Origin: Acidimicrobiales bacterium
GTDB taxonomy: Bacteria; Actinomycetota; Acidimicrobiia; Acidimicrobiales; Palsa-688
Direction: 5' to 3'
Assembly: GCA_036378675.1 (NCBI GenBank)
Contig: DASUWA010000005.1
Location: forward strand, 1 to 64,000
DNA length: 64,000 nucleotides
Shown here: piece by piece, positions 1,152 through 40,466 of the stretch
Layout of the letters: every line of letters begins with the position of its first letter
Numbering within the stretch: position 1 is the stretch's first letter
Made by a program: the position numbers and the translations under genes
The notes under the pieces: generated by a model
The model's input: only the letters and a program-made list of their open reading frames with translations
Databases searched by the model: none
What the model was told of the DNA's origin: nothing

Positions 1152-2564
1152 TTGTCCCTTAGTCCTGTGTCGTTGCGCTTCGGGACAGACGGCGTCCGCG
1201 GGCTCGCCGGCGTCGAGCTGTCGCCCGAGCTCCTGGTCGCCCTGGGGCGCGCTGCGGCGCGGACGCTTTCAGCCGGCAGTGAGCGGCCGGTCTTCCTCGT
1301 CGGGCGGGACACCCGCCTGTCCGGGCCGATGGTCCAGGCTTCGCTTTCCGCCGGGCTGTCCGCTGAGGGGGCAGACGTCATCGACCTCGGTGTGATACCC
1401 ACCCCGGGGGTCGCGGCAATTGCAGCATCGAAAGGGCTGCCGGCCGCGGTGGTGTCCGCTTCGCACAATCCCTTTCAGGACAACGGGGTGAAGCTGTTGT
1501 CCGCCGGCGGGCGAAAGCTGACCGACGCGGAGGAAGAGAAGGTCGAAGCCGTCCTCGCCGAGCTGACCCGCGGAGATTCTGGCGCGAGCCCAAGTGCCTC
1601 GCGCGATCCGGGATCTCTCTCCGGCGAGAGGATCGGCAGGCTGTGGTCCGAGCCCGAGGCCCGGGACTGGTACTGCGAGACGGTGGTCGCCGCGCTGGAA
1701 GGGCGGAAGCTAGGTGGGATCCGGGTGGTGCTCGACTGCGCCAATGGCGCCGCCACCACCACCGCCGAGCGGATCCTGTCCTCCGCGGGCGCACACGTCG
1801 TCGAGGTGCTGGCCGCCGCTCCGAATGGCGTCAACATCAACGCCGCATGCGGCTCGACGGATCCCTCCTCGCTCGCCGCCGCGGTGCGCCGGCACGGGGC
1901 CGACGCCGGCATGGCGCTCGACGGGGACGCCGACCGGGTAATCGCCATCGACAGCGCCGGAGCGGTTGTGGACGGCGATCGGCTGCTCGCGTTGTTCGCC
2001 TCCGATCTGAAAGCGCGCGGGCGGCTTGCCGGCGACACCTTGGTGGTCACGGTGATGTCCAATCTCGGCTTGCGGCGGGCGATGGCGCAGGCCGGCATCC
2101 GCGTGCACGAGACACCGGTGGGAGACCGCTACGTGCTCGAGGCTCTCGACGCCAATGGTTGGTCGCTGGGTGGCGAGCAGTCCGGTCACATCATCTTCAG
2201 GGACCTGGCGACGACAGGGGATGGCGTCCTTTCGGGACTGATGCTCATGGATCTGATCGTGCGGGCGGGGAAGCCGTTGTCCGAGCTGGCGGACACGTCG
2301 ATGGTGCGTCTCCCGCAGGTGATTCGAAACGTCACCGTTGCGGGGGGATCGGGAGCAGCGCTGGTCGCGTCAGCTACGGTCAGCGCGGCTGTTCAACGGG
2401 AGACTGAGGATCTTGGTTCGGACGGCAGAGTCCTCTTGCGCCCCTCAGGAACCGAGCCGCTGGTGCGGGTGATGGTGGAAGCGCCGACCGAGGACGCCGC
2501 CGCTGCCGCGGCCGAGAGGCTCGCTGCGGCAGTGGCTTCAGCGTCTCGTCAGCTCGAGGATTGA
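1152..2564 (+). CDS. glmM: Phosphoglucosamine mutase
   Basis: Converts glucosamine-6-phosphate to glucosamine-1-phosphate on the route to UDP-GlcNAc and peptidoglycan. The product begins with the alpha-phosphohexomutase start RFGTDGVRG. It has the phosphoserine loop VVSASHNPFQDNGVK near residue 100, the metal loop LDGDADR near 260, the sugar-binding GGEQSGHI near 340 and the phosphate-binding RPSGTEPLVRV near the end. At 470 residues it is slightly longer than the usual ~445, mainly through a Ser/Gly-rich insertion around residues 135-160. The start used is TTG 1152; GTG 1167, which gives VSLRFGTDG, is an equally plausible start. It sits just upstream of the glmS-like gene, as in other actinobacteria. 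Confidence 0.95.
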   Translation: MSLSPVSLRFGTDGVRGLAGVELSPELLVALGRAAARTLSAGSERPVFLVGRDTRLSGPMVQASLSAGLSAEGADVIDLGVIPTPGVAAIAASKGLPAAVVSASHNPFQDNGVKLLSAGGRKLTDAEEEKVEAVLAELTRGDSGASPSASRDPGSLSGERIGRLWSEPEARDWYCETVVAALEGRKLGGIRVVLDCANGAATTTAERILSSAGAHVVEVLAAAPNGVNINAACGSTDPSSLAAAVRRHGADAGMALDGDADRVIAIDSAGAVVDGDRLLALFASDLKARGRLAGDTLVVTVMSNLGLRRAMAQAGIRVHETPVGDRYVLEALDANGWSLGGEQSGHIIFRDLATTGDGVLSGLMLMDLIVRAGKPLSELADTSMVRLPQVIRNVTVAGGSGAALVASATVSAAVQRETEDLGSDGRVLLRPSGTEPLVRVMVEAPTEDAAAAAAERLAAAVASASRQLED

Positions 2565-3598
2565 TCGTCGCTTCGAGGGCTGCGGCCGGTCGAACCGGTG
2601 CTGTTGCCGTCTTGGCTTCAGTGGGCCTGGTCGCGTGCGGAAGCTCATTCTCCCACCCGGCCGCAGGACCGACCACCGCCGCCTCTGGCACAACTCCGTC
2701 GACGCAGGCCGTCCCAGGCCTGCCCCCTACCACGACGCCGGCGCCCGTGACCCCTTGTGGTTTCCTGCAGACCGCAAGGGCGAATTACCGGCACGTGGTG
2801 TGGATATGGATGGAGAACCACTCCTACGGCAGCGTCATCGGGTCGCCCTCCGCGCCGTTCGAGAACAAGCTCGCCGGCGAGTGCGGGTTGGCCACCAACT
2901 ACCACAACGTCACCCACCCGAGCCTGCCCAACTACATAGCGGGAACATCGGGCCTGCCGATCGGATCGGTCGCTCAGTTTGTATCCGATTGCAGCCCGAG
3001 TTCGTCGTGTAGAGCTGGCCCTTCCGTTCCGAGCATCTTCTCCCAGGTCGCAAGCTGGAAGGCCTACGAGGAGTCGATGCCCACCGCATGTGACCGCGCC
3101 AGCGCGGGCGAGTATGCGGTCCGGCACAATCCTCCTCCGTATTTCGTGGCGTTGACGGGGACGTGCCCGTCCAACGATGTTCCATTCACTTCGTTTCGTG
3201 ATGACCTCGCCGGCGCAACGTTGCCGGCCTTCTCGTTCATCACCCCGAACCTCATCGACGACACCCATGACGGCTCGGTCGCCGACGGTGACAGATGGCT
3301 GAACACGACCGTGGGCGAGATCGTCGGCAGCTCGGCCTTCCGGTCGGGGACCGTCGCCCTCTTCATCACATGGGACGAGGGTGAAGGTGGCAGTTCCAAC
3401 AACTGTGCGGCCAACGCGACCGCCGTTGGGTGCCACGTCGCAACAATTGTGGTCAGCCCGACCACCGCGCCCGGAACGAAAAGCGCGGCCCTGTTCAACC
3501 ACTACTCGTTGCTTCGCACCGCCGAAGACCTGCTTGGTGTTCCCGCGACCGGCCAGGCCGCGTCGGCGGCCTCGATGGAATCAGCCTTCGGGTTATAA
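2561..3598 (+). CDS. Secreted lipoprotein of the acid phosphatase / phospholipase C phosphoesterase family
   Basis: Predicted cell-surface phosphoesterase (family PF04185, which includes AcpA-type acid phosphatases and phospholipases C). Residues 1-26 form a lipoprotein signal peptide ending in the lipobox LVAC, followed by a Thr/Pro-rich linker to about residue 65. The catalytic domain shows VWIWMENHSYG near residue 80, THPSLPNYIAGTSG, DDTHDGSVADGDRWL and the metal-binding TWDEGEGGSSNNC. The start overlaps the glmM stop (TTG 2561 with TGA 2562-2564), so translation is probably coupled. Substrate cannot be told from sequence. It ends two bases before the convergent MFS gene, leaving no room for a separate terminator. 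Confidence 0.85.
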   Translation: MIVASRAAAGRTGAVAVLASVGLVACGSSFSHPAAGPTTAASGTTPSTQAVPGLPPTTTPAPVTPCGFLQTARANYRHVVWIWMENHSYGSVIGSPSAPFENKLAGECGLATNYHNVTHPSLPNYIAGTSGLPIGSVAQFVSDCSPSSSCRAGPSVPSIFSQVASWKAYEESMPTACDRASAGEYAVRHNPPPYFVALTGTCPSNDVPFTSFRDDLAGATLPAFSFITPNLIDDTHDGSVADGDRWLNTTVGEIVGSSAFRSGTVALFITWDEGEGGSSNNCAANATAVGCHVATIVVSPTTAPGTKSAALFNHYSLLRTAEDLLGVPATGQAASAASMESAFGL

Positions 3599-3600
3599 AT

Positions 3601-5094
3601 TCAGCCCAGGCTCTCGACGGCCGGCGTTTTGGTAAAGGCGCTGCTGCCCCGCAGCTTCACTTCCTGCAGCAGGAACGACAACAAGAAGGCGATCACCGCC
3701 ACAGGGAACGCATATCTGAAGGCTGTGTCCATGGCGTGGGTGAAGGACTGCAGCGGTCCCTCTACCCTTCCGTATACATGGACGTAGTGGGCACCGTGGG
3801 TCTTCTCTTGAAGAACCAGCACCGCGCCGAGAACAGCAGCTCCTATTGCTCCGCCCAGGGTGCGGAAGAACGTCACCGCGGCCGTGCCGGCACCGAGGTT
3901 CTCTCGTGGTACGGCATTCTGGACGACCAGAACAAGCACCTGCATGAACAGGCCGAGCCCGGTTCCGATGATGAGGAGCATCAGCGCGATGATCCATTCA
4001 GCGGTGTCGACCCTGATCAGACTCATCATGCCGATCCCCACCGCCAGGATCGCCGTGCCGGCTATGACCGACCACCGGTAGCGGCCGGTGCGCGAGACAA
4101 GCCGGCCGCCAAGTATCGACATCGACAACATCCCGGCGAGCATCGGAAGAAGCCGCAACCCCGAGAAGGTCGGGCTGATCTTCCGGACGGTCTGGAAGTA
4201 GAGAGGCAGGAACAGCAGCGCTCCGAACATCACCATTCCGGTGATGAATCCCAGCACGTTGGAGACCGTAAACACTTTGATCCTGAAGAGGCCTAGATCC
4301 ACGATCGGCTCGGCTGCTCGCCTCTCCCACCACACGAACACTCCGATGAGCGCGATGCCGACGATGCCGAAAAGGACGGACGATGCGGTCACCTTGGCCG
4401 CCGAGCCGGCGTTTTGCACGCCGACCAGTAAGAACGAGACTCCGGTGACGATCAGCAGCGCGCCCAGTACATCGACCCGCGACCTCCGGGACACATGGTC
4501 CAGCTGAAGCACCCGGTTGATCACGATCAGGGCAACGGCACCCACAGGTAGGTTGACGTAGAAGACCCAACGCCACGACGCCTGGTCAACGAGGAAACCA
4601 CCGATCAGTGGTCCGATCACGCTCGAGACACCGAACACCGCGCCGAAGTATCCCTGGTACCGGCCGCGGTCTACCGGCGGGATGACGTCGCCGATGATCG
4701 CCAGCGTGAGGGTAATGAGCCCTCCCGCGCCCACGCCCTGAACGCCACGAAAGATGATCAGCTGGTACATGTTCTGGGCGAGCCCCGAAAGCGCGCTCCC
4801 GATCAGGAAGATCACGATCGCGATCTGGAATATGCGCTTGCGCCCGAATTGGTCGCCGATCTTCCCGTACAGCGGTGTGCTGGCAGTCGAGGTCAGCAGG
4901 TAAGCGGTAACCACCCAGCTGTACAGGTCCAGCCGGTGGAAGTCCCTGCTGATCGTCGGCAGTGCGGTCGACACGATCGTCTGGTCGAGCGAAGCGAGGA
5001 GCAGTCCGAGCATGAGCCCGGACATGATGAAAAGGATCTGGCGCTTCGTGTAGCCGTTGGCGTTGACTACCGGTGCATCGAGCGTGGCGGTCAT
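3601..5094 (-). CDS. MFS drug-efflux transporter, DHA2 (EmrB/QacA) family
   Basis: Proton-driven multidrug exporter of the inner membrane. The 497-residue protein fits the 14-segment DHA2 group. The first membrane helix ends in the LASLDQTIVSTALP motif, the loop after helix 2 carries YGKIGDQFGRKR, and motif C lies in GVSSVIGPLIGGFLVD. The C-terminal part has GTGLGLFMQ and GAGTAAVTFFRTLGGAIG. ATG 5094 (MTATLDAPVVN) is chosen over an upstream start because it gives ATGA overlap with the stop of the tetR gene and a normal N-terminus. The pair tetR-efflux pump suggests that the regulator represses both genes and senses the exported compound. The substrate is unknown. Confidence 0.9.
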   Translation of the reverse strand: MTATLDAPVVNANGYTKRQILFIMSGLMLGLLLASLDQTIVSTALPTISRDFHRLDLYSWVVTAYLLTSTASTPLYGKIGDQFGRKRIFQIAIVIFLIGSALSGLAQNMYQLIIFRGVQGVGAGGLITLTLAIIGDVIPPVDRGRYQGYFGAVFGVSSVIGPLIGGFLVDQASWRWVFYVNLPVGAVALIVINRVLQLDHVSRRSRVDVLGALLIVTGVSFLLVGVQNAGSAAKVTASSVLFGIVGIALIGVFVWWERRAAEPIVDLGLFRIKVFTVSNVLGFITGMVMFGALLFLPLYFQTVRKISPTFSGLRLLPMLAGMLSMSILGGRLVSRTGRYRWSVIAGTAILAVGIGMMSLIRVDTAEWIIALMLLIIGTGLGLFMQVLVLVVQNAVPRENLGAGTAAVTFFRTLGGAIGAAVLGAVLVLQEKTHGAHYVHVYGRVEGPLQSFTHAMDTAFRYAFPVAVIAFLLSFLLQEVKLRGSSAFTKTPAVESLG

Positions 5095-5723
5095 CGACGA
5101 GATTCTCTCGGGAGAGGACCCGAAAGGCCGGCGGCCAGCTGGTGGAAAGCCTCGCCGAGCAGCGTCCGAAGGCCTGGCCGGCCGGGGAGGCCCGTCCAGC
5201 GCAGGAACGCAACGCGGCAGGCGACGCAAGCCGATCCAACGAGGAGGCCGGGGTAGACGTCGCGCTCAGGGTTCTGGCCCGTGCGCTCCGCAACGGCGGT
5301 CACCAACGCCTGCCCGACCTGGTCGAAAGTGGCGCTCACCGCGGCCCTCAGCTCCGGCTCGCGTCGCACCAGCTCCGCGATGCGAATCGACACTGCGCGG
5401 TCCGTTGCCCGGCTGACGATATCCTCCTCCAGAACAGCCTGAACCGATGTCAAAGCGTCCTCTCCGAAAGGGCGGCTGAGAAGCGCCAGCCGCAGCCTCT
5501 CGGGACGCTCGGGATCGTGGTCCAGAACCGCCTCCTCCTTGGAGGTGAAATAGGACCAGAAGGTCCGGGGCGCCACCCCCGCTTGTTCGCTGATCGCCTC
5601 GATGGTCGCGCCGGCAAGCCCGTGGCGCTCCACGAGCTGCAGGGCCGCGGCGTGGATGGCTCGGCGGGTGGCCTGCTTCTTGCGTTCGCGGTGGGTGGGG
5701 GGAGACAGGTCGACCGCGGCCAT
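5091..5723 (-). CDS. TetR family transcriptional regulator
   Basis: DNA-binding repressor of 210 residues. The N-terminal helix-turn-helix spans about residues 8-60 (ATRRAIHAAALQLVERHG, then GATIEAISEQAGVAPRTFW and SYFTSKEEAV), a typical TetR domain. The C-terminal ligand domain resembles the actinobacterial group that ends with a single cysteine-containing helix and RWTGLPGRPGL. ATG 5723 is the best start because an in-frame extension to 6008 would run through the divergent flavoenzyme. It is cotranscribed with the MFS pump through a 4-base overlap. Its operator is probably in 5724-5868; a weak TTGC-N7-GCAA dyad lies at 5746-5760. Confidence 0.88.
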   Translation of the reverse strand: MAAVDLSPPTHRERKKQATRRAIHAAALQLVERHGLAGATIEAISEQAGVAPRTFWSYFTSKEEAVLDHDPERPERLRLALLSRPFGEDALTSVQAVLEEDIVSRATDRAVSIRIAELVRREPELRAAVSATFDQVGQALVTAVAERTGQNPERDVYPGLLVGSACVACRVAFLRWTGLPGRPGLRTLLGEAFHQLAAGLSGPLPRESRR

Positions 5724-5852
5724 GCGAGCATGGTAGCAGGAAAAATTGCGTATCGTGCAAAAAAGCGCACCGTGCAGAGTTGCCGGGTCAGCTGCTCGAG
5801 CGGCGGTCCCGCCCAACGGAACCGTCAACCGGGAGGCCCCTTGAGCCGTTGC

Positions 5853-5858
5853 TAGCGT
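5853..5858 (+). promoter_or_regulatory. Candidate -10 box for the flavoenzyme gene
   Basis: TAGCGT lies 10 bases before ATG 5869. This fits the TANNNT box found 6-10 bases before many start codons in this window, and implies a leaderless or nearly leaderless mRNA. No clear -35 box was found. Confidence 0.35.
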
Positions 5859-5868
5859 CCCGCAGCCG

Positions 5869-7440
5869 ATGGCAGCTAATTGGGACCGGGAGTGCGACGT
5901 TCTCGTAGTTGGGTCGGGAGGCGGCGCGCTGGCCGGCGCCCTCATCGCGGCGACCCGCGGGCTTCGAACGGTCGTGATCGAGAAAACCGACCAGTTCGGC
6001 GGGACCACCGCCTACTCCGGGGGCGGCCTGTGGATCCCGCTGAGCCCGGCGAACGAGCGGGCGGGAGTGCCGGACTCGCCGGAACTGCTAGAGGAGTATC
6101 TGGACGCCACGGTCGGCACCGACCGCCGAGAGCTTCGCGACGTGTACCTCTCTGCGGGTCCGACGGTGATCGAGGAACTCGAACAAAATCCGTGGCTCGA
6201 GTTCGAGTGGCGTGCGTTCCCCGACTACTTCTGCGAGAAGCCGGGCGCGCTGCCGGACGGACGCTCCATCTACGCACTCAACTTCGATGCCAAAGGCCAC
6301 GAGAAGGTGATCGAGCACCTGCGCCAGCCGCTACCCCCTGCGAAGGGAGGCTGGATCGAGCCCTTCCCGTACATGTTCGGCGGGCGGGCGTTTCTCGCCC
6401 GGCTCCTTGTTGCCCTGTCGCAGACCGACGCGGCTCTCGAGAGGGAGACGGCTCTCGAGTCACTTATCGTCGAAGACGACGTCGTCACGGGTGCGGTTGC
6501 GACGACCGCATCGGGGCCGGTCCGAATACGAGCCCGGCGCGGGGTCCTGCTGGCGGCCGGGGGGTTCGAAAGGGACTCCAAGATGCGCCACCGCTACCAG
6601 CCGCCGCTCGGAGCCGACTGGACCCTCGGCGCGCCCGGGAACACCGGCGGCCCGTTGCGAGCGGCGATCGAGGCGGGCGCGTCGGTAGAGCTTCTCGACG
6701 AGTGCTGGTGGGCCCCCGGCTTGGCGTTGCCCGATGGCACCGTGTCGTTCCGGCTGTTCGAGAGAGGCAAGCCGGGCGGGATCATGGTCAACGGAGCCGG
6801 CGAGCGTTTCGCCAACGAGTCCCTGCCGTACGACCGTCTAGGGCGGGCCATGCTCGACGGTCACCGAAGCGGCGTATCACACATCCCGTGCTGGTTCGTC
6901 GTGGACCAGGCGCACGTCGACAAGTACGGCTTTGCTACAGGCAAGCCGGGAGAGCCCATCGGCGCAGAATGGCTCGAGAGCGCAACGGTCCTCACCGGCG
7001 ACACCCTCGAAGAAATGGCCGAGCGGATCGGTGTGCCGGTCGGCGGCCTGTCGAAGACGCTCGACGAGTTCAACCAGGATGCGCGGCGGGGGAAGGACTC
7101 CCGCTTCGGTCGGGGCGAGACCGCTTTCGACCGCTTCTTCGGTGACCCCAAGCACGAACCGAACCCCAATCTGGGCCCGCTCGAGTCGCCGCCGTTCTAC
7201 GCGTGGAAGGTTCTGCCTGCCGACCTGGGCACCAAGGGTGGGGTCCGTTGCGATCCCAAGGGCCGCGCACTGCGCGAAGACGGAACGGTCCTGCCCGGGT
7301 TGTACGCGGCTGGTAACACCATGGCCTCGTGGACCAACCGGTGCTATCCAGGGCCGGGGTCACCGATCGGATCGTGCGTGGTGTTCTCCGTCCTAGCGGT
7401 GCGCGACATGGCTGATAAATCCGGGAGTCCCGGAGCCTGA
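5869..7440 (+). CDS. FAD-dependent 3-ketosteroid dehydrogenase-like oxidoreductase
   Basis: Flavoenzyme of the fumarate reductase/3-ketosteroid-delta-1-dehydrogenase superfamily. The Rossmann FAD site is at residues 11-33 (VLVVGSGGGALAGALIA) with IEKTDQFGGTTAYSGGGLW following. A second FAD segment, GLYAAGNTMASWTNRCYPGPG, lies near the C-terminus and carries the Tyr-Pro-Gly-Pro-Gly pattern seen in KstD proteins. Its 523 residues are usual for that family. In steroid-degrading actinobacteria this reaction introduces a 1,2 double bond into ring A, but other 3-oxo substrates are possible and no other steroid genes are nearby. It is divergent from tetR-MFS. The final codons and stop lie inside the first unit of a 23-bp tandem repeat. 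Confidence 0.78.
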   Translation: MAANWDRECDVLVVGSGGGALAGALIAATRGLRTVVIEKTDQFGGTTAYSGGGLWIPLSPANERAGVPDSPELLEEYLDATVGTDRRELRDVYLSAGPTVIEELEQNPWLEFEWRAFPDYFCEKPGALPDGRSIYALNFDAKGHEKVIEHLRQPLPPAKGGWIEPFPYMFGGRAFLARLLVALSQTDAALERETALESLIVEDDVVTGAVATTASGPVRIRARRGVLLAAGGFERDSKMRHRYQPPLGADWTLGAPGNTGGPLRAAIEAGASVELLDECWWAPGLALPDGTVSFRLFERGKPGGIMVNGAGERFANESLPYDRLGRAMLDGHRSGVSHIPCWFVVDQAHVDKYGFATGKPGEPIGAEWLESATVLTGDTLEEMAERIGVPVGGLSKTLDEFNQDARRGKDSRFGRGETAFDRFFGDPKHEPNPNLGPLESPPFYAWKVLPADLGTKGGVRCDPKGRALREDGTVLPGLYAAGNTMASWTNRCYPGPGSPIGSCVVFSVLAVRDMADKSGSPGA

Positions 7441-7512
7441 AACCCGGGAGTCCCGGAGCCTGACGCCCGGGAGTCCGGGAGCCTGACGCCCGGGAGTCCG
7501 GGAGCCTGACGC
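7421..7512. repeat. Four tandem 23-bp repeats overlapping the end of the flavoenzyme gene
   Basis: Units begin at 7421, 7444, 7467 and 7490. Each carries CCGGGAGTCC(C/G)GGAGCCTGA. Units 1 and 2 contain an odd-centred perfect palindrome CCGGGA-G-TCCCGG; units 3 and 4 share a C-to-G change that shifts the dyad. The TGA of unit 1 is the stop codon of the upstream gene. The array could act as a chain of small hairpins (termination or mRNA 3'-end protection) between this gene and glmS. Confidence 0.9.
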
Positions 7513-7560: not shown

Positions 7561-10500
7561 ATGTGCGGGATCGTCGCCGTCCTCCCTCGACCCGCCAGCC
7601 GGCCGGCACCCGAACCCGCGGCTGTACTGGCGGACCTGAGTGAGGTCGAGCAGATCCTCGCCTCGGAGGACATCGCCGGCGGCGACCTCGATCCCCTGAG
7701 ATCCGCCTCGCAACGGTTGGTGGAGACCGACCGGTCGCTGCGCTACACGCCCGGCCTGAGCTGCCTTCTCCGGACCGAGGGGGTGATCGACGACGTCGCC
7801 GCCGTCACCGGTCGCATCGGCAAGCTCCTCGCCGGGTTCGAATCGTGGCTGGACGCCTCCGCGCAGGATCTGTCCCCGGCCCTGCAAGAGGATCTCAACG
7901 CGGTTCTGATCGACCTCAAGGACGCATGGTGGGCGATAGACCGCGACCGGCTCGGAACAGCCCGCGCGGTCAGGGACCTGACCGCCGAGGTTGGCGCCGG
8001 CAACGGCACGGACGTGGTGGATCAGAACCTCCTCGGACAAAAACTCGTCGGCCAAAACCTCGTCGGCCAAAACCTCATGGGGTGGTGGGCCATCGAGGTC
8101 GCCCTTTCGTCTCTGGACCGGCTGGAGGTCCGAGGCCGTGATTCCGCCGGCCTCCACGTGCTCGTCTTGAACCACGGCCTCGATCTCGACGATCCTGAGA
8201 TCCTCGAGCTCATCGCTCCCCGCGCCGCCGATCCGCTCTTCACTGCCGGCGCCGTCCGGGTCCAAGACGACTGTCTCAGCTTCGTTTACAAGGCCGCTGC
8301 CGAGATCGGCGAGCTCGGAGACAACGTCCTCGCCCTTCGATCTCAGATCCGTTCGGATCAGCTTCTCGCCAGGGCAATAGCCCCGGACTCGGCCCGCGTG
8401 ACGGTTCTCGGCCATACCCGGTGGGCGAGCGTCGGGATCATCTCCCAGCCCAATGCGCACCCGGTCAACTCGGAGGAACTCGGACGTCCGGCGGCCCCTT
8501 ACGTCGTGGCGGCGCTGAACGGGGATGTCGACAACCACGCCGAGCTGCGGTTGTCCGAGTCGCTCGCCATCCCCGCTGAGTTGACGACCGATGCGAAAGT
8601 CATCCCGACGCTGATCTCGCGCGGACTCGCCGATGGCGCCGACTTGAATCAGGCGTTCTTCGAGACCGTCCGGCGTTTCGATGGATCGGTCGCGATCGGC
8701 GCATCGACGGCGGGTTCTCCCGATTCGATCCAGCTCGCATTGTTCGGCTCGGGGCAGTCCCTCAACGTGGGCATCGCCGAGGACGCGTTCGTCGTCGCCA
8801 GCGAGCCGTACGGCCTGGTGGAGGAGACCGACCGTTACCTCCGCATGGATGGCGAGAGCACCCGCGGACAGGTCGTGGTCATCGACCGCGACGGCGCCGG
8901 CACCCTTTCGGGCCTCTGCCGTTACCGCTACGACGGCACAGAGCTGCCGGTGAGCCCTGAAGAGATCATCCAGGCGGAGATCACCACACGCGACGTCGAC
9001 CGCGGCGGCTTCCAGCACTTCCTGCTGAAGGAGCTGACCGAGGCACCCTCGTCGTTTCGTAAGACCTTGCGCGGACGGATCGGAACCGGCGAGGGAGGCC
9101 GGCTCGCAGTCCGGGTCGGTCCCGAAACGGTCCCGCCGGCGCTCGCTACGGCCCTCGCCGACTGCAGGATCGAACAGATCGTGGTGGTTGGACAGGGCAC
9201 TGCCGCGGTCGCGGGCCAGGCGGTTGCAGCGGCGATCTCGTCATGTCTTCCCGACATGACCGTGACGGCCCAACCCGCGACGGAGCTGTCGGGGTTCGGA
9301 CTGAAGGACGACATGAGCAACACGCTCGTCGTCGCGATAAGCCAGTCCGGAACGACCACGGACACCAACCGGACCGTTGATCTCGCACGGGCGCGCGGCG
9401 CCCACGTGGTAGCCGTCGTCAACCGCCGCAACAGCGACCTATCGACCAAAGCCCAGGGCGTGCTCTACACGTCCGACGGCCGCGACGTCGAAATGAGCGT
9501 CGCGTCCACCAAAGCGTTCTACGCACAGGTTGCTGCCGGATGGCTCCTCGCAGGCGCGCTCGCGCAGGCGGCAGGACACTGCCGCGGCGAGATCGGCGAA
9601 CGGCTGCACAGCATCCTTTCGGGACTTCGGGATCTGCCGGTCGCCATGGAACAGGTGCTTTCCGCCCGCGAAGAGGTCGGCCGGCTCGCATCATCCGTCG
9701 CGCCGGCCCGGCGCTACTGGGCCGTGGTCGGAAGCGGGCCCGACCGGGTCGCCGCGTCGGAAGTCCGGATCAAGCTTTCCGAGCTTTGCTACAGGTCGAT
9801 ATCGAGCGACGCCACCGAGGACAAGAAGCACATCGATCTATCCTGCGAGCCTCTGATCCTTGTGTGCGCCGCTGGCCTGAAAGGTCCGAACGCGGACGAT
9901 GTCGCCAAAGAAGTGGCTATCTACAAGGCGCACAAGGCCGCGCCCGTGGTGATCGTCCCCGAGGCGGAGGCAGAACGTTTTCGCAAGGCGACCGGCGACG
10001 TCATCACCGTCCCTGCGGTGGACTCCGAGCTGGCCTTCGTCCTCTCAGCGATGGTCGGCCATCTCTTCGGGTACGAGGCCGCGCTGTCCATCGACGCGCA
10101 GGCCCGCCCGCTTCGGGCAGCTAGAGCAGCCATCGAGCACGCCGCGGCAGGTGGCGAGGATCGGATACTCGATCGGCTGCGACCCGAGCTCGAGGCGGCA
10201 ACCCAGCCGTTCATTCAGGGCCTGCGCGACGGCAGCTACAACGGGAACCTCGAGGCTTCAACCGCCGTCCGGCTGGTTTCCCTGCTCCGTTACGCCACCG
10301 GGTTGCTCCCCCTCGACGCCTACGAACACGAGACCGGCAAGATCGCCACACCGGACGCGCTCCTCTCGGATCTTCTCGACGCGCTGAGCACAGGGATCGA
10401 CGAGCTGACCCGCCCGGTCGACGCCATCAAGCATCAGGCCAAGACCGTGACGGTCGGGATATCCCGCAGCGAGGAGGTGCTCTTCGGCGTGCCGCTCGTG

Positions 10501-11046
10501 AAGTCGACGCTCGGCGCCGGCGCTACCGCAGACATGCTCGGATACCGGGCTTTGCGGACCCTCGGTGCCCTGGACGAGGCCGTCGAGGAGGTGACCGGCT
10601 ACACCCGGTACAAGATCGAGTGGTCGGCTCCCCGAGGCCCGACCGCTTCGGTTGTGGATCAGGGAGGAGCGGCTCGAAACCTTCCCTCGCGAACCGGTCG
10701 CGATCCAAGGCTGCGGGGAAGCAAGCACCGCGCCGCCGAGGAACGCGAGGTAACAGTCGTGAGAGGCGCGAGCGACGGCCGCACCGTGGTGCTCATTCCG
10801 GAGGTGAAGGGGAGCCAGGTGACCGGCATGACGCTGCTGCACGTGCGCTTCAAGGACGACCTCGACGCGGACGCCGCCAAACGCGTGCTCAGCGGTTACA
10901 GGACGAGATACTCGGCACTCTCCGACGCGGTCACCGAAACCGAGCCGACGTTCGACGACTCCCGGCTCGGGGACGTGCCGATAGTGGATCTGCTCACCGA
11001 GCCGGTGTACCAGCTCGCAACCCGGTGGCGCTCGGGAGCTCGGTGA
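7561..11046 (+). CDS. glmS: Oversized glutamine-fructose-6-phosphate aminotransferase-like protein (1161 residues)
   Basis: GlmS makes glucosamine-6-phosphate from fructose-6-phosphate and glutamine. The N-terminal MCGIVAV supplies the catalytic Cys2 of the glutaminase domain. That domain resumes only near residue 175 (WWAIEVALSSLDRLEVRGRD) and continues with GHTRWAS near 284 and LNGDVDN near 320. Two SIS sugar domains follow: SQSGTTTDT near 595 with VASTKAF near 647, then a second SIS at about 715-850. The usual GELKHGP loop is replaced by TEDKKHID, and the conserved C-terminal tail with its catalytic lysine is not recognisable; instead some 300 extra residues follow. Family members have about 610 residues. 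The rplM-rpsI-glmM-glmS-acpS-nnr-alr order supports a true GlmS role. Activity of the altered sugar site is unproven. Confidence 0.8.
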   Translation: MCGIVAVLPRPASRPAPEPAAVLADLSEVEQILASEDIAGGDLDPLRSASQRLVETDRSLRYTPGLSCLLRTEGVIDDVAAVTGRIGKLLAGFESWLDASAQDLSPALQEDLNAVLIDLKDAWWAIDRDRLGTARAVRDLTAEVGAGNGTDVVDQNLLGQKLVGQNLVGQNLMGWWAIEVALSSLDRLEVRGRDSAGLHVLVLNHGLDLDDPEILELIAPRAADPLFTAGAVRVQDDCLSFVYKAAAEIGELGDNVLALRSQIRSDQLLARAIAPDSARVTVLGHTRWASVGIISQPNAHPVNSEELGRPAAPYVVAALNGDVDNHAELRLSESLAIPAELTTDAKVIPTLISRGLADGADLNQAFFETVRRFDGSVAIGASTAGSPDSIQLALFGSGQSLNVGIAEDAFVVASEPYGLVEETDRYLRMDGESTRGQVVVIDRDGAGTLSGLCRYRYDGTELPVSPEEIIQAEITTRDVDRGGFQHFLLKELTEAPSSFRKTLRGRIGTGEGGRLAVRVGPETVPPALATALADCRIEQIVVVGQGTAAVAGQAVAAAISSCLPDMTVTAQPATELSGFGLKDDMSNTLVVAISQSGTTTDTNRTVDLARARGAHVVAVVNRRNSDLSTKAQGVLYTSDGRDVEMSVASTKAFYAQVAAGWLLAGALAQAAGHCRGEIGERLHSILSGLRDLPVAMEQVLSAREEVGRLASSVAPARRYWAVVGSGPDRVAASEVRIKLSELCYRSISSDATEDKKHIDLSCEPLILVCAAGLKGPNADDVAKEVAIYKAHKAAPVVIVPEAEAERFRKATGDVITVPAVDSELAFVLSAMVGHLFGYEAALSIDAQARPLRAARAAIEHAAAGGEDRILDRLRPELEAATQPFIQGLRDGSYNGNLEASTAVRLVSLLRYATGLLPLDAYEHETGKIATPDALLSDLLDALSTGIDELTRPVDAIKHQAKTVTVGISRSEEVLFGVPLVKSTLGAGATADMLGYRALRTLGALDEAVEEVTGYTRYKIEWSAPRGPTASVVDQGGAARNLPSRTGRDPRLRGSKHRAAEEREVTVVRGASDGRTVVLIPEVKGSQVTGMTLLHVRFKDDLDADAAKRVLSGYRTRYSALSDAVTETEPTFDDSRLGDVPIVDLLTEPVYQLATRWRSGAR
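8023..8082 (+). repeat. Four in-frame 15-bp repeats inside the glmS-like gene
   Basis: Units at 8023, 8038, 8053 and 8068 encode QNLLG, QKLVG, QNLVG and QNLMG at residues 155-174, at the end of the insertion that splits the glutaminase domain. Units 2-4 are close copies (CAAAACCTCGTCGGC type). Because the unit is 15 bp, gain or loss of a copy keeps the reading frame. Confidence 0.85.
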
Positions 11047-11049
11047 TCC

Positions 11050-11430
11050 TTGGGCGGCGCGCTTGTCGGGATCGGCATCGACTCCGTGGACATCGAACGT
11101 TTTGCCGCCGTGCTGACTCGAAGAGCTTCGTTGGCGAAGCGGGTCTTCACCGCCGGAGAGCGCGAGTATGCGGGCCGGCTCGCTGACCCGACCCCGGCTC
11201 TCGCCGCGAGGTTCGCTGCCAAGGAGGCGGCGATGAAGGCGCTCGGGGTTGGTATCGGCTCGATCGATTGGCCTGACGTCGAAGTCGTCCGATCCGGCAA
11301 CGGCGGGCCGCTGCTCGCGGTGACCGGCCGGGCCGCCGCCCTGGCGGCGGGGAGGGGCATCGGCTCTTGGCTCGTTTCGTTAACCCACACCGAAACGGTC
11401 GCGTCGGCGGTAGTGGCGGCCGTTTCGTGA
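11050..11430 (+). CDS. acpS: Holo-[acyl-carrier-protein] synthase
   Basis: Transfers 4'-phosphopantetheine from CoA to a serine of acyl carrier protein, activating fatty acid synthesis. The 126-residue product has the AcpS signature GIGIDSVDIERFAAVL at the start (metal-binding Asp), FTAGEREYA, and the second metal/CoA motif RFAAKEAAMKALGVG near residue 60, ending with SLTHTETVASAVV. TTG 11050 lies three bases after the glmS-like stop. The next gene, nnr, overlaps its stop by GTGA. Length and motifs are ordinary. Confidence 0.95.
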   Translation: MGGALVGIGIDSVDIERFAAVLTRRASLAKRVFTAGEREYAGRLADPTPALAARFAAKEAAMKALGVGIGSIDWPDVEVVRSGNGGPLLAVTGRAAALAAGRGIGSWLVSLTHTETVASAVVAAVS

Positions 11431-12830
11431 TACCGGTCCTGACGCCGAGCGAAATGGCCGGCGTCGACCGGGCTGCGACCGAGCCGGTCGACGTTCTCGT
11501 GGAACGCGCGGGATACGCGGTCGCGTCCGCCTCCCGGAGGTTGCTCGGCGGTACCTATGGCAAGCGTGTGGTGGTCGTCGCCGGGCCCGGTAACAACGGA
11601 GCGGACGGCCGGGTGGCGGCACGCATACTCGTCAGGTCCGGCGCGGCGGTGCGGATCCTCGAGGTGAAGCAGCTCCAGCCGGGGGAGTTGCTTCCCGAGG
11701 CGGACCTGTTCATCGACGCTGCGTTCGGTACCGGCCTGAGCCGTCCGTACGCGGCGCCCGACCCCGGATCTGCGGCGGTTCTGGCCGTCGACATCCCGTC
11801 TGGGATTTCAGGCGAGACGGGTGTGCCGGTTGCGGGCGGGGATGCGGTGGTAGCCGATGTCACGGTCACGTTCGCCGCTCTGAAGCCTGGACTGCTGATC
11901 GGCTCAGGTCCCGAGCACAGCGGGTCGATCGAATTGGACGACATCGGGCTTGGCGATCTCGCGTCCGAGGCCGCACGGGCCTGGCTGGTCACCGACGCGG
12001 ACGTCCAGCGAATGCTGCCCCCGCGGCCGCGCGAGGCGCACAAGTGGCAGTCGGCCGTGCAAATAGTCGGCGGCTCGCCGGCAATGCCCGGAGCGCCGCT
12101 CCTCGTCGCGCAGTCCGCGCTTCATGCCGGCGCCGGGTACGCGTGGGTGGGAGTACCCGGGTCACCCCAGGGCGGCGGTCTACCGCCCGGCGAGTACGTC
12201 GGCCACGACCTCCCGGCACGCGACTGGGCGGAGGCTGCCGCCGCCGGAGCCAGCCGGGCGAAGGCGCTGGTCGTCGGGCCGGGCCTCGGTGCGTCAGCGC
12301 ATCCAACGAAAGGCTCCAACGCCTCGCCGGTCGCCGACTTGCTCGGCTCGACCGACGTGCCGGCGGTTGTCGATGCGGACGGGATCAGCTCCTTCGACGG
12401 GCTCGACGAGGTCAGATCGGTGACGGCGAATCGGAAAAGCCCCATAGTCCTCACCCCGCACGCCGGCGAGTTCGCCCACCTCACGGGTAGCCCACCGGCC
12501 GAGGATCGTTTCGCGTCAGTCAGGGAGGCGGCACGCCGGAGCGGAGCGGTGGTCCTCCTGAAGGGCTCGACGACCCTCGTCGCGCACCCCGATGGGCGGG
12601 TTCTCGTGTCGACTTCGGGCTCCTCCAGGTTGGCGACCGCTGGAACGGGAGACGTGCTGTCGGGACTGATCGGCGCGTTCGTCGCGCGCGGGGTGCCAGT
12701 TTTCCAGGCGGCGGCTCTCGCTGCGCACGTGCACGGCCGGGCCGCGTCGTTGGGACCGGCTGAGGGGTTGGTTGCGACCGACCTGCCCGTGCTGGTGTCG
12801 TTGTGGCTTTCGGAGTTGCGCGAAGAGTGA
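11427..12830 (+). CDS. nnr: Bifunctional NAD(P)H-hydrate epimerase / ADP-dependent NAD(P)H-hydrate dehydratase
   Basis: Repairs damaged (hydrated) NADH and NADPH. The N-terminal epimerase domain has VVVVAGPGNNGADGRVAAR near residue 50, DAAFGTGLSR and VDIPSGISGETG. The C-terminal dehydratase domain (ribokinase fold) shows QIVGGSPAMPGAPLLVAQSA, VVGPGLGAS, DADGISSFDG, LTPHAGEFAHLTG and the catalytic loop TAGTGDVLSGLIGAFVARG. The start is GTG 11427, overlapping the acpS stop as GTGA; an upstream start at 11367 would run deep into acpS. At 467 residues the length is normal. The alr start overlaps its stop in the same way. Confidence 0.95.
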   Translation: MIPVLTPSEMAGVDRAATEPVDVLVERAGYAVASASRRLLGGTYGKRVVVVAGPGNNGADGRVAARILVRSGAAVRILEVKQLQPGELLPEADLFIDAAFGTGLSRPYAAPDPGSAAVLAVDIPSGISGETGVPVAGGDAVVADVTVTFAALKPGLLIGSGPEHSGSIELDDIGLGDLASEAARAWLVTDADVQRMLPPRPREAHKWQSAVQIVGGSPAMPGAPLLVAQSALHAGAGYAWVGVPGSPQGGGLPPGEYVGHDLPARDWAEAAAAGASRAKALVVGPGLGASAHPTKGSNASPVADLLGSTDVPAVVDADGISSFDGLDEVRSVTANRKSPIVLTPHAGEFAHLTGSPPAEDRFASVREAARRSGAVVLLKGSTTLVAHPDGRVLVSTSGSSRLATAGTGDVLSGLIGAFVARGVPVFQAAALAAHVHGRAASLGPAEGLVATDLPVLVSLWLSELREE

Positions 12831-14002
12831 CGTCGTCTGTCGAGCTAGAGGTGAAGGCGGGCCGGTTGCGGCCGGCGTGGGCGGAGATCGATCTTGATGC
12901 CATACGGCACAACGCGTCGCTGCTCAGACGCGAGGTCAGCCCGGCAAAGCTGTGCGCGGTCGTAAAGGCGGGAGGGTATGGGCACGGGTCGGTGCCGGTG
13001 GCTCGCGCGGCGCTCGAGGGCGGAGCCGACTGGCTGGCTGTCGCTCTGGTCGAAGAGGGGATCGAGCTTCGGGAGGCCGGGATCACCGCTCCGGTGCTGC
13101 TGTTGTCCGAACCGGTCCCGGAGGCGATGGGTGAGCTGGTTGCAGCGCGTCTAACTCCGACGATCTACACACCCGAGGGACTCAACGCGCTTGCTGAAGC
13201 GGTGAGCGTAAGGAACGATTTCGCCGAACCTTTTTCCGTCCACGTGAAAACCGACACCGGGATGCACCGGGTGGGCGCCCCAATGGGGGACGCCACCGAC
13301 CTGGCCGTGCGCGCCGCTTCGACTCCGGGTTTGCGGCTCGAGGGTTTCTGGACTCACCTCGCGGTCTCGGACGAGCTCGACAACGCGTACACGTCGATTC
13401 AGCTCGACCGATTCGACGAGGCCTGCATCGCATTGCGCCGGTCGGGTGTGTCGCCGGCGCTGCTTCACGCCGCCAACTCGGCGGCCGCCTTGTGGCATCC
13501 GAAGTCCCGCCTGGGCATGGTTCGCTGCGGGATCTCGCTTTACGGGCTGGCCTCGGACAGCGGTCTCAGCGGTATCTCCCCGGCCGACCGTTTGCGACCG
13601 GCCATGTCCTTGAAGGCGCGGGTCTCGTACGTGAAGGAGGTCGCCTCGGGCGAACGCATCTCGTACGGGTTGCGATACCGGCTCGATCACGACTCGACCG
13701 TCGCGACGGTGCCGCTCGGATACGCAGACGGGGTGACCCGTTCGCTGTCCGCCGCGGGAGCGGAGGTATTGATCGGAGGGTGCCGCCGGCCTGTCGCGGG
13801 GACGGTCACGATGGACCAGCTGATGGTCGATTGCGGACCCGGTGAGGTCGTCAGGCGAGGCGATGAGGTCGTTCTGATAGGAACCCAGGGCGCGGAATCG
13901 ATCAGCGCCTGGGAGTGGGCCGACCGGACCGGCACTATCGCGTACGAGGTCGTTTGCGGGATCAGCTCGCGAGTGCCCCGGGTCTACCTGGGCGGCGAGT
14001 GA
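12827..14002 (+). CDS. alr: Alanine racemase
   Basis: PLP enzyme that makes D-alanine for peptidoglycan. The PLP lysine lies in LCAVVKAGGYGHG near residue 47; most relatives have VKADAYGHG or VKANAYGHG, so the two residues after Lys-Ala are slightly unusual. TDTGMHRVG near residue 140, LLHAANSAA near 210, and the catalytic tyrosine region GERISYGLRYR with VPLGYADG near 270-290 are all present, as is TVTMDQLMVD. GTG 12827 is chosen for the GTGA overlap with the nnr stop; TTG 12803 would add eight residues. Its own stop overlaps the next start. The 391-residue length is typical. Confidence 0.95.
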   Translation: MTSSVELEVKAGRLRPAWAEIDLDAIRHNASLLRREVSPAKLCAVVKAGGYGHGSVPVARAALEGGADWLAVALVEEGIELREAGITAPVLLLSEPVPEAMGELVAARLTPTIYTPEGLNALAEAVSVRNDFAEPFSVHVKTDTGMHRVGAPMGDATDLAVRAASTPGLRLEGFWTHLAVSDELDNAYTSIQLDRFDEACIALRRSGVSPALLHAANSAAALWHPKSRLGMVRCGISLYGLASDSGLSGISPADRLRPAMSLKARVSYVKEVASGERISYGLRYRLDHDSTVATVPLGYADGVTRSLSAAGAEVLIGGCRRPVAGTVTMDQLMVDCGPGEVVRRGDEVVLIGTQGAESISAWEWADRTGTIAYEVVCGISSRVPRVYLGGE

Positions 14003-38576: not shown

Positions 38577-40466
38577 TCAGCAGGCGTAGTCGAGGTCGTA
38601 GCGAGATGGAGGGCCGGGCCAGGAGCCCGGGAAGCCGCCCTTGTAGCCGTACTGGACGTAGCGCAACACCCCGCCGGCGAACCTCTCGGAGGGGTCGCCG
38701 CAGAAAGACGTGGCCGTGAACCCGGGACCTGAGAGGTTCCCGGCTCCGGGCACCCAGATCTGGATACCCGGGATGGACCAGCCGCCCGTGATGATGCCCC
38801 ACTGCCGGGGGCTCGAGTAGATGCCATAGGGAGCGCCGCTGCGCCGCAACGCGTCGAGGGCTCCCCGGATCACCTGATCGTTGGTCCCCGCGTCGCTCCA
38901 GCCCGATCCTGTCTCGATGTCGAGCCACCATTGCCGTGCGTGAAACCCGAGCGAGTTCGAATAGGCGACCCAGTGGTCTGCCCAGAACCAGCCGTAGTTG
39001 TAGGCCAGGCACGCGCCGTTCGACCCGCACACTCCGGCGGGACCGCTCATCGCTTCGGGAGGTAGTGGGTTGGGCAGGCCGTCCATGAAGATGTACGACT
39101 GAAGGTTGGGTCCCGCCCAAGCGGCCTCGGCCGCGTAACAAGGATTGGCCGGCCAGTTCAAGGCCCCACCGGTGACCTGGACGACCGAGATGGCGAAGTG
39201 CCCGCCGGGAATCGCCCCGCATTGATAGCGGGAGATGTCCATGCCCGTAGAGCCGGGCGGCACGACCAGGCCGGAAGGGGCAACCGAGGCCAGCGGAGCG
39301 GGTAGGGGAACGGGCGGCATGGGAGGCGGCGGAGGCGGGGCGACAGCCGATCCGTAGAACGGGGCGTCGCCGAAGGTGAACACGCCCCCGTCGCTTCCGG
39401 CCAACCAGTACCCGTTGCCCGACTGGGTGGTGGCCACGCCGACGACTGAACCGCCCAGCTTCCGGCCTCCAAGCGATCCGAAGTAGGGGGCTCCGCCGAA
39501 AGTGAACACCCCGCCGTCGCTTCCGACGAGGTAGTAGCCGTTCCCGGAGGGGGTGGCCGAGATGCCCACGATCCGGCCGTTCAGCTTCTCGCCTCCCAGC
39601 GATCCGAAGTACGGTGCGTTGAAGGCGAAGATGCCGCCGTCCGAGCCGACCAGCCAGTAACCGCCGGTCGCCGGGTCGACCGCCATGGCGACGACCTGGC
39701 CGTTCAGACGGTGGCCTCCCATCGATCCGAAGTACCGAGCGTCGCCGAAGGTGAACACCCCGCCGTCTCGGCCGACGAGGTAGTAGCCGTGGCCGCTGGG
39801 CGTCGCCGCCATGCCGACGATCTGGCCGTTGAGCTTTACGCCGCCCTCCGAGCCGAAGAAACCCGCGCCGCCGAGGGTGAACACGCCTCCGTCCGACCCT
39901 GCGAGCCAGACGCTCGACCCGTTGGTCGCGGATCCGACGATCCGGCCGTTGAGCCAGGTGCCCAGAAGGGTCGCGGTGTCGGGCGCGCCGAACGAATACA
40001 CGCCGCCGTCGCTGCCAACCAGGCGGTAGCCGGTTCCGGAAACGTTGATGATCCCCGACATCGGGCGGTCAGGAACGTAGGAGATCGACCTCTGGTTGAC
40101 AGGGGCGGGCGGCAGGGGCGCCAGCTGCGGGCCGGTGGCGGCGCCCTGGGATCCCGGCGCGACCGGCGCCGGCACGGAGGCCGCCTGGACCGAGGTCGAC
40201 TTTCCCGCGGCGCAATTCACGAGAGGCGCCAGGCATCCACCAATGACCGTCGACGCGGTCGCCGGCTGCGCCAGGATCACCGCGCCGGCGACTCCCGACA
40301 CCGTCGTCGCCCCCGCGAGAGCCAAAACCCCGACCATTGCGGCGGAACCGGAGTTTTCGGCGATCGACGAAATACCCTGCAAAACGCCGCGTTTCGCTGC
40401 GCGATGGGCGCGGCGGCGAGACCTCGTGGGCGCGCCCGATGCCGCGCGGCGTGACTTCTGCTGCAT
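38577..40466 (-). CDS. Secreted protein with six ~42-residue repeats and a C-terminal GH25-like domain
   Basis: Probable exported cell-wall or surface protein of 629 residues; function unproven. A long basic N-terminus (Arg/Lys-rich to about residue 27) is followed by a hydrophobic signal/anchor segment at 43-70 and a Pro/Ala linker. Six repeats start near residues 146, 185, 227, 269, 310 and 352; each has a G-Y-x-L-V/A-G-S-D-G-G-V-F-T-F-G core and a FGSxGGxxLNGxIVG end, as in a six-bladed propeller. After a polyproline linker, residues ~404-629 begin GMDISRYQCGAIPGGHFA, contain QWWLDIETGSGW (Asp-X-Glu pair near 516-518) and end SRYDLDYAC, resembling GH25 muramidases or the DUF1906 glycosidase fold. 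Confidence 0.8.
   Translation of the reverse strand: MQQKSRRAASGAPTRSRRRAHRAAKRGVLQGISSIAENSGSAAMVGVLALAGATTVSGVAGAVILAQPATASTVIGGCLAPLVNCAAGKSTSVQAASVPAPVAPGSQGAATGPQLAPLPPAPVNQRSISYVPDRPMSGIINVSGTGYRLVGSDGGVYSFGAPDTATLLGTWLNGRIVGSATNGSSVWLAGSDGGVFTLGGAGFFGSEGGVKLNGQIVGMAATPSGHGYYLVGRDGGVFTFGDARYFGSMGGHRLNGQVVAMAVDPATGGYWLVGSDGGIFAFNAPYFGSLGGEKLNGRIVGISATPSGNGYYLVGSDGGVFTFGGAPYFGSLGGRKLGGSVVGVATTQSGNGYWLAGSDGGVFTFGDAPFYGSAVAPPPPPPMPPVPLPAPLASVAPSGLVVPPGSTGMDISRYQCGAIPGGHFAISVVQVTGGALNWPANPCYAAEAAWAGPNLQSYIFMDGLPNPLPPEAMSGPAGVCGSNGACLAYNYGWFWADHWVAYSNSLGFHARQWWLDIETGSGWSDAGTNDQVIRGALDALRRSGAPYGIYSSPRQWGIITGGWSIPGIQIWVPGAGNLSGPGFTATSFCGDPSERFAGGVLRYVQYGYKGGFPGSWPGPPSRYDLDYAC

Follow-up and report, generated by a model that had tools for sequence, protein, structure and literature searches.

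Introduction

The enzyme GlmS, glucosamine-6-phosphate (GlcN6P) synthase, is a drug target whose product is the first amino-sugar precursor of peptidoglycan. The roles of its catalytic residues Cys1, Glu488, His504 and Lys603 have been described (PMC9272926), as have those of the human equivalents in GFAT-1 (PMC7000685). The catalytic tail of the human enzyme, the C-loop, is disordered in some ligand states and flexible unless ligands are bound, and tags at the termini of human GFAT-1 disturb its activity (PMC7000685).

Here we describe an enlarged relative of these enzymes, the long GlmS, encoded at positions 7561-11046 of the forward strand within the first 64,000 nucleotides ("the window") of contig DASUWA010000005.1 from an Acidimicrobiales bacterium (assembly GCA_036378675.1). 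The open reading frame is intact and specifies 1161 residues with the N-terminus MCGIVAV. A preliminary description of the window, made from the sequence, had proposed a GlmS-like protein with a split glutaminase and a lost catalytic tail, and either a rebuilt sugar site or a new activity. We find that the tail is present within the chain, and that the protein is very probably the sole GlcN6P synthase of this bacterium, a highly diverged and enlarged GlmS with intact chemistry; this assessment leaves aside any sensing step.

Results

The catalytic tail is internal

The end of E. coli GlmS, VDQPRNLAKSVTVE, aligns to VDAIKHQAKTVTVG, residues 953-966 of the long form. This internal tail reads AKTVTVG, its K961 aligning with E. 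coli K603 and being invariant in 78 of 78 sequences, and segment 954-966 has a mean identity of 97%, the highest of the family segments compared (33% for the N-terminal insertion, 57% for the C-terminal domain). Structural alignment, made without use of the sequence alignment, likewise pairs model residues 2-966 with residues 1-608 of E. coli GlmS (1jxa) and 2-681 of human GFAT-1, so the earlier statement that the C-terminal lysine tail is absent does not hold. Whereas the chain of canonical GlmS stops exactly at K[ST]VTVE in 44 of 44 sequences, that of the long family runs on for 187-207 residues beyond the tail, about 195 in the protein from this window.

The canonical catalytic residues tested are present as Cys2, R287/W288, N320/G321, D344, E734, K738, E741, H757 and K961. 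In E. coli numbering, the 32 long forms compared all keep C1, R26, R73, W74, H86, N98, G99 and D123 in the glutaminase, together with S347, Q348, S349, T352, V399, S401, E481, K485, E488, K503, H504, A602, K603, V605, T606 and V607; T302 is kept in 31. The counterparts of E488, H504 and K603 are E741, H757 and K961 in every one of the 32. Two of the substitutions in the long forms also occur in canonical enzymes, namely S303A (alanine in 18 of 44) and S604T (threonine in 13), and four changes lie immediately before the tail (P598I, R599K, N600H and L601Q).

Predicted structure and added segments

A sequence search of solved structures with the 1161-residue protein matched E. coli GlmS and human GFAT-1, and profile-profile comparison with canonical GlmS gave a probability of 100% (E 6.6e-57). 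AlphaFold2, supplied with 78 family sequences, modelled the whole protein with a mean predicted local distance difference test score (pLDDT) of 88.8 and a predicted template modelling score (pTM) of 0.80; the stretches with pLDDT below 50 were residues 148-162, near a local repeat, and 955-969, in the tail. The modelled fold is a glutaminase joined to two SIS subdomains, as in GlmS and GFAT. VIA-align placed it on 1jxa with Z 41.0 (596 residues, 4.4 Å) and on human GFAT-1 6zmk with Z 42.4 (605 residues, 3.9 Å); single-domain matches are given in Table 1. The superposition on E. coli GlmS that the preliminary description had called for thus yielded a GlmS fold, aligned through the tail.

Pfam recognises GATase_6 and one SIS domain in the protein, and nothing more. 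The motif RGRDSAG begins 190 residues in, as against 26 in canonical GlmS, giving about 164 extra residues after Cys2, before the glutaminase R-loop; some 315 residues past the canonical isomerase core lack a Pfam match. Both figures agree with the preliminary description (about 165 residues and about 300 residues without an evident domain). Sequence searches of the added segments against solved structures returned chance-like matches only, those of the N-terminal insertion being mainly to designed helical bundles and coiled coils. Within that insertion, at 8026-8076, a 15-bp repeat (AACCTCGTCGGCCAA, 3.4 copies) encodes an NLVGQ-type pentapeptide repeat. The corresponding residues, approximately 156-172, represent a local repeat expansion in this genome, in a low-confidence region of the model, and a pattern search found no such pentapeptide repeat in the other full-length relatives.

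The C-terminal domain

Residues 968-1161, folded alone, gave pLDDT 93.9 and pTM 0.89; in the model the C-terminal domain is a confident, self-standing fold joined directly to the catalytic tail. No convincing sequence match to residues 967-1161 was found in Pfam, NCBIfam or the PDB, PAS and GAF families included; PAS/GAF-type sensor domains are poorly conserved in sequence (PMC8175468). Foldseek ranked the large glutamate dehydrogenase of Mycobacterium smegmatis, L-GDH180, first (E 2.2e-3); GAF, PAS and CACHE sensor domains came next. With VIA-align, residues 174-360 of its structure 7jsr, the structure of L-GDH180, matched at Z 9.3 (157 residues aligned) and GAF, PAS and CACHE domains at Z of 7.4 or less; all these scores lie in a range that common arrangements reach too. 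As judged from the model, the domain is most like PAS/GAF-type sensor domains. Profile-profile comparison with L-GDH180 stayed below 1% probability whether the whole enzyme or its N-terminal region was used, so the resemblance is one of fold only.

The domain is confined to the long GlmS. Its profile matches 57 of 148 genomes of the class Acidimicrobiia, essentially once per genome, and these are the same 57 that carry the long GlmS; among the canonical-glmS genomes of this sample a profile search found no stand-alone copy. The domain is nearly as conserved as the catalytic domains (mean identity 57% vs 61-67%), and its invariant polar residues include R1044, K1055, D1072, R1074, R1116 and E1126.

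Distribution and replacement of canonical glmS

At least 549 genome loci encode relatives of the long GlmS. In the whole-genome search and in named genomes, relatives could be aligned end to end at 53-71% identity, and those from named genomes are nearly all labelled Acidimicrobiia or Actinomycetota (Aquihabitans, Candidatus Microthrix, Ilumatobacter, metagenome-assembled genomes labelled Ferrithrix, and others). The 77 full-length proteins from named genomes have 1,114-1,183 residues, with the same insertions and the same extra C-terminal region. Such numbers and such uniformity of architecture argue against chance or a sequencing artefact: the long GlmS is a conserved subfamily of about 1,115-1,185 residues, widespread in Acidimicrobiia. 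No plasmid-borne relative covering 80% of the query was found.

In the class sample, 83 of the 148 genomes have a canonical glmS over the curated TIGR01135 cut-off (418 bits), 57 have the long form and none has both, against about 32 expected under independence (Fisher p ~1e-32, shared ancestry ignored). The bacterium's own genome, 97% complete, has no canonical glmS by TIGR01135. Its other match to this model is partial (positions 1-219), in a 529-residue frame that we read as a PurF-type glutaminase. The search for a second, canonical glmS suggested in the preliminary description thus found none elsewhere, which favours a housekeeping role. A gene for nagB scored over its cut-off in just two of 20 long-form genomes.

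A few genomes from other classes of the phylum carry the long form as well; they lack canonical glmS except for one contaminated assembly. That assembly (G042; contigs C313 and C155, loci L147 and L140) is the sole one with both genes, and comprises 360 contigs with 5% contamination. Its only rplM shares a contig with the canonical gene, and a misbinned contig is likely, though not proven, rather than a real second copy. Separately, a genome of family f13 (G004) and its relatives G082, G104 and G125 gave no match to the long GlmS, and G004 matched the GlmS model at E 4e-9; some small genomes of the phylum may be without a recognisable glmS, or the gene may lie in an assembly gap.

We built trees from 76 sequences, long and canonical, with FastTree and with IQ-TREE (the latter without support values). 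The phylogeny of long homologues, also proposed in the preliminary description, shows a single clade on a very long stem of 2.3-2.8 substitutions per site. Where this clade attaches among canonical GlmS is unresolved (FastTree support 0.33).

The genomic slot

The gene lies, as the preliminary description had it, at the glmS position of a conserved actinobacterial cluster, with rplM and glmM upstream and acpS-nnr-alr-tsaE-tsaB-rimI-tsaD downstream. Long and canonical glmS share this slot, rplM-glmM-[glmS]-acpS-nnr-alr-tsaE-tsaB-rimI-tsaD (Table 1). The product of glmM is the next enzyme of the pathway after GlmS. In most relatives glmM and the long glmS are adjacent, unlike in this genome, where the interval 2561-7440, five genes' worth of DNA, holds a phosphoesterase, a major facilitator superfamily (MFS) transporter, a TetR-type regulator and a flavin adenine dinucleotide (FAD)-binding oxidoreductase.

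Table 1. Coordinates of the segments of the long GlmS and of its neighbouring genes in the window
Feature	Position	Strand	Evidence
Residues 1-9, first glutaminase strand with catalytic Cys2 (codon 7564-7566)	7561-7587	+	C2 invariant (n=78); aligns with E. coli C1
Residues 10-176, helices inserted after the first glutaminase strand, ahead of its first helix	7588-8088	+	Absent from canonical GlmS; helices in model; 33% mean pairwise identity
Residues 177-478, remaining glutaminase (R191, R287, W288, H300, N320, G321, D344), smaller insertion near 200-280	8089-8994	+	Match to glutaminase 1xff, 1.8 Å over 238 residues
Residues 479-845, double-SIS isomerase core (T547, S594, Q595, S596, T599, S649, E734, K738, E741, H757)	8995-10095	+	Match to human isomerase domain 2v4m, 2.1 Å over 344 residues
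Residues 752-759, TEDKKHID, counterpart of GELKHGP loop	9814-9837	+	H757 aligns with H504
Residues 846-953, helical insertion between isomerase core and catalytic tail	10096-10419	+	Model; 53% mean pairwise identity
Residues 954-966, DAIKHQAKTVTVG, internalised catalytic C-tail	10420-10458	+	K961 (codon 10441-10443) aligns with K603
Residues 967-1161, added C-terminal domain, PAS/GAF-like fold in model	10459-11043	+	AlphaFold2 and fold matches; confined to long GlmS
glmM	1152-2564	+	TIGR01455, 483.5 bits (cut-off 447.55)
acpS	11050-11430	+	ACPS PF01648; gene order kept in relatives; downstream neighbour of glmS slot
nnr (NAD(P)H-hydrate epimerase/dehydratase)	11367-12830	+	PF01256 and PF03853; gene order in relatives
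alr (alanine racemase)	12803-14002	+	PF01168 and PF00842; gene order in relatives

Ahead of the long glmS, at 7421-7512, a 23-bp unit (CCGGGAGTCCCGGAGCCTGACGC) occurs in four tandem copies (95% matches), each containing a short palindrome; the array, which ends 48 bases ahead of the ATG, is possibly regulatory, or a recent repeat expansion. Neither a glmS ribozyme nor any other Rfam family reached the gathering score within the window. Farther along, 39348-39893 holds an array of an imperfect 126-bp repeat, about 4.4 copies with 70% matches, that apparently encodes a repeat protein.

Discussion

From the catalytic residues, the slot shared with canonical glmS and the mutual exclusion between the two genes, we hold with high confidence that the long GlmS functions as a GlcN6P synthase. 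This is by far the simplest reading, and the role is most probably a housekeeping one. We note several points that weigh on the other side. Identity with canonical GlmS in the core is only about 27%, and the protein reaches 228.4 bits against TIGR01135 (model positions 53-589; other long forms 140-254 bits), below the cut-off. The loop round His504 is changed family-wide (G500E, E501D, L502K, G505I and P506D), and H77 is V or I, alongside T76S. The tail was poorly predicted, so the model does not establish its place in the active site, although low confidence there would be expected of a tail that behaves like the human C-loop. The sensor reading of the C-terminal domain comes from fold similarity alone; synthase activity and ligand binding are both predicted. 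Finally, since terminal tags disturb GFAT-1, a natural extension behind the tail needs explaining.

Altered chemistry, as proposed in the preliminary description, is disfavoured by the internal lysine tail, by the equivalents of Cys1, Glu488, His504 and Lys603, and by the retention of nearly all phosphosugar-binding positions. The unusual architecture stands, as does the reading of GELKHGP as TEDKKHID, and with the His504 loop so changed the sugar site may be subtly different. One could go further and suppose a glutamine-dependent amidotransferase acting on another sugar phosphate, its sugar site rebuilt by the TEDKKHID loop and the extra domains, as the family-wide loop change (E, D and K for G, E and L; I and D for G and P), the loss of H77 and the very long stem might suggest. 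We think this improbable: every catalytic residue and almost every phosphosugar-binding one is kept, glmM lies in the same locus, and no genome of the class sample has both genes, so that in long-form genomes, otherwise without GlmS, another specificity would leave the peptidoglycan precursors without a source. Still less probable is a second enzyme activity in the C-terminal domain, for instance the acetyltransferase step apparently lost from the truncated GlmU of the order. The GlmU homologue of this genome (contig C54 of G000; L106:1459-2562) has 367 residues, and its match to TIGR01173 stops at position 340 of 452; such short proteins are found across the order, whereas GlmU is full-length in the class's other orders. 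The part that seems to be missing is where known GlmU has its acetyltransferase active site. However, genomes of the same order with canonical glmS have a short GlmU as well, GlmU is full-length in long-form genomes from outside the order, and the C-terminal domain has no acetyltransferase match; we rejected it as a stand-in, GlmU truncation following the order and not the type of glmS.

That the insertion directly after Cys2 might be an intein or other mobile insertion, leaving a mature protein of canonical length, is scarcely credible. The insertion has no intein family match, occurs in all 77 full-length relatives and begins past the first strand rather than at a splice junction; on the lack of a family match and the conserved architecture this candidate too was rejected. 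A more serious alternative is that the enzyme is the same and the added domains are purely architectural, serving oligomeric state or fold stability without ligand sensing. The helical insertions resemble packing elements in the model, the N-terminal insertion is poorly conserved, and likeness to a PAS/GAF fold is no proof of ligand binding. On the other hand, the conservation of the C-terminal domain close to that of the catalytic domains, its invariant polar residues and its best fold matches, which are sensor domains, do not sit easily with architecture alone. We regard an architectural role and a sensing role as about equally likely.

Should the long GlmS act as a GlcN6P synthase, Cys2, N-terminal once Met is removed, would hydrolyse glutamine, the ammonia would pass to the double-SIS site, and E741, H757 and K961 would convert fructose 6-phosphate to GlcN6P. 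Anchored on both sides, the internal tail would close over the sugar and complete the ammonia channel, like the C-loop of the E. coli and human enzymes. Held between an added helical segment and the PAS/GAF-like domain, such a tail suggests that the domain may sense a small molecule and affect the ordering or closure of the tail. Going by the model, we put forward this ligand-sensing control only tentatively. With somewhat more hesitation we speculate that the long forms represent a class of GlcN6P synthase not described before, where a ligand on the PAS/GAF-like domain holds or frees the tail and so switches sugar binding and the ammonia channel. We know of no such allosteric control for bacterial GlmS.

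A large natural lineage with its tail in mid-chain, on a sensor-like domain, implies that the requirement for the tail to be the chain end can be relaxed. If the sensing is real, the first step of bacterial cell-wall precursor synthesis would carry its own allosteric control; the long GlmS also offers a case for testing the C-loop as an allosteric handle in bacteria. For annotation, long forms fall below the standard GlmS cut-off, so genomes that carry them may wrongly seem to be without glmS. We found no described long GlmS in the literature, most subscription papers being outside our coverage, and the arrangement of an internal tail with a sensor-like domain is apparently undescribed.

In comparison with known systems, the long GlmS shares with canonical GlmS (TIGR01135; E. 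coli 1jxa and 2j6h) its catalytic residues, the order of glutaminase then double SIS, its fold and, in the class, its genomic slot; the canonical enzyme, however, has about 610 residues with the tail as its chain end, and is without the post-Cys2 insertion, the helical insertion before the tail and the C-terminal domain. Human GFAT-1 (6r4e, 6zmk) has the same fold and a C-loop that stays flexible in the absence of bound ligands, but its chain ends at that loop and feedback by uridine diphosphate N-acetylglucosamine (UDP-GlcNAc) acts via the interdomain linker and not a C-terminal domain (PMC7000685). The N-terminal sensor segment of L-GDH180 (7jsr; PMC8175468) is the best fold match of the C-terminal domain, yet its sensors precede the catalytic domain whereas the domain of the long GlmS lies behind the catalytic tail, and the two have no detectable sequence relationship. 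NagB-II and other SIS sugar isomerases or deaminases (8fdb, 8eol) have a double-SIS fold like the isomerase half; they match that half only and lack the glutaminase domain, which the long GlmS has with its catalytic residues, and the NagB-II-type family score is far weaker (NF046059, 53.7 bits against a cut-off of 430). What is new is thus an architectural variant of a known enzyme; the kind of enzyme itself is known.

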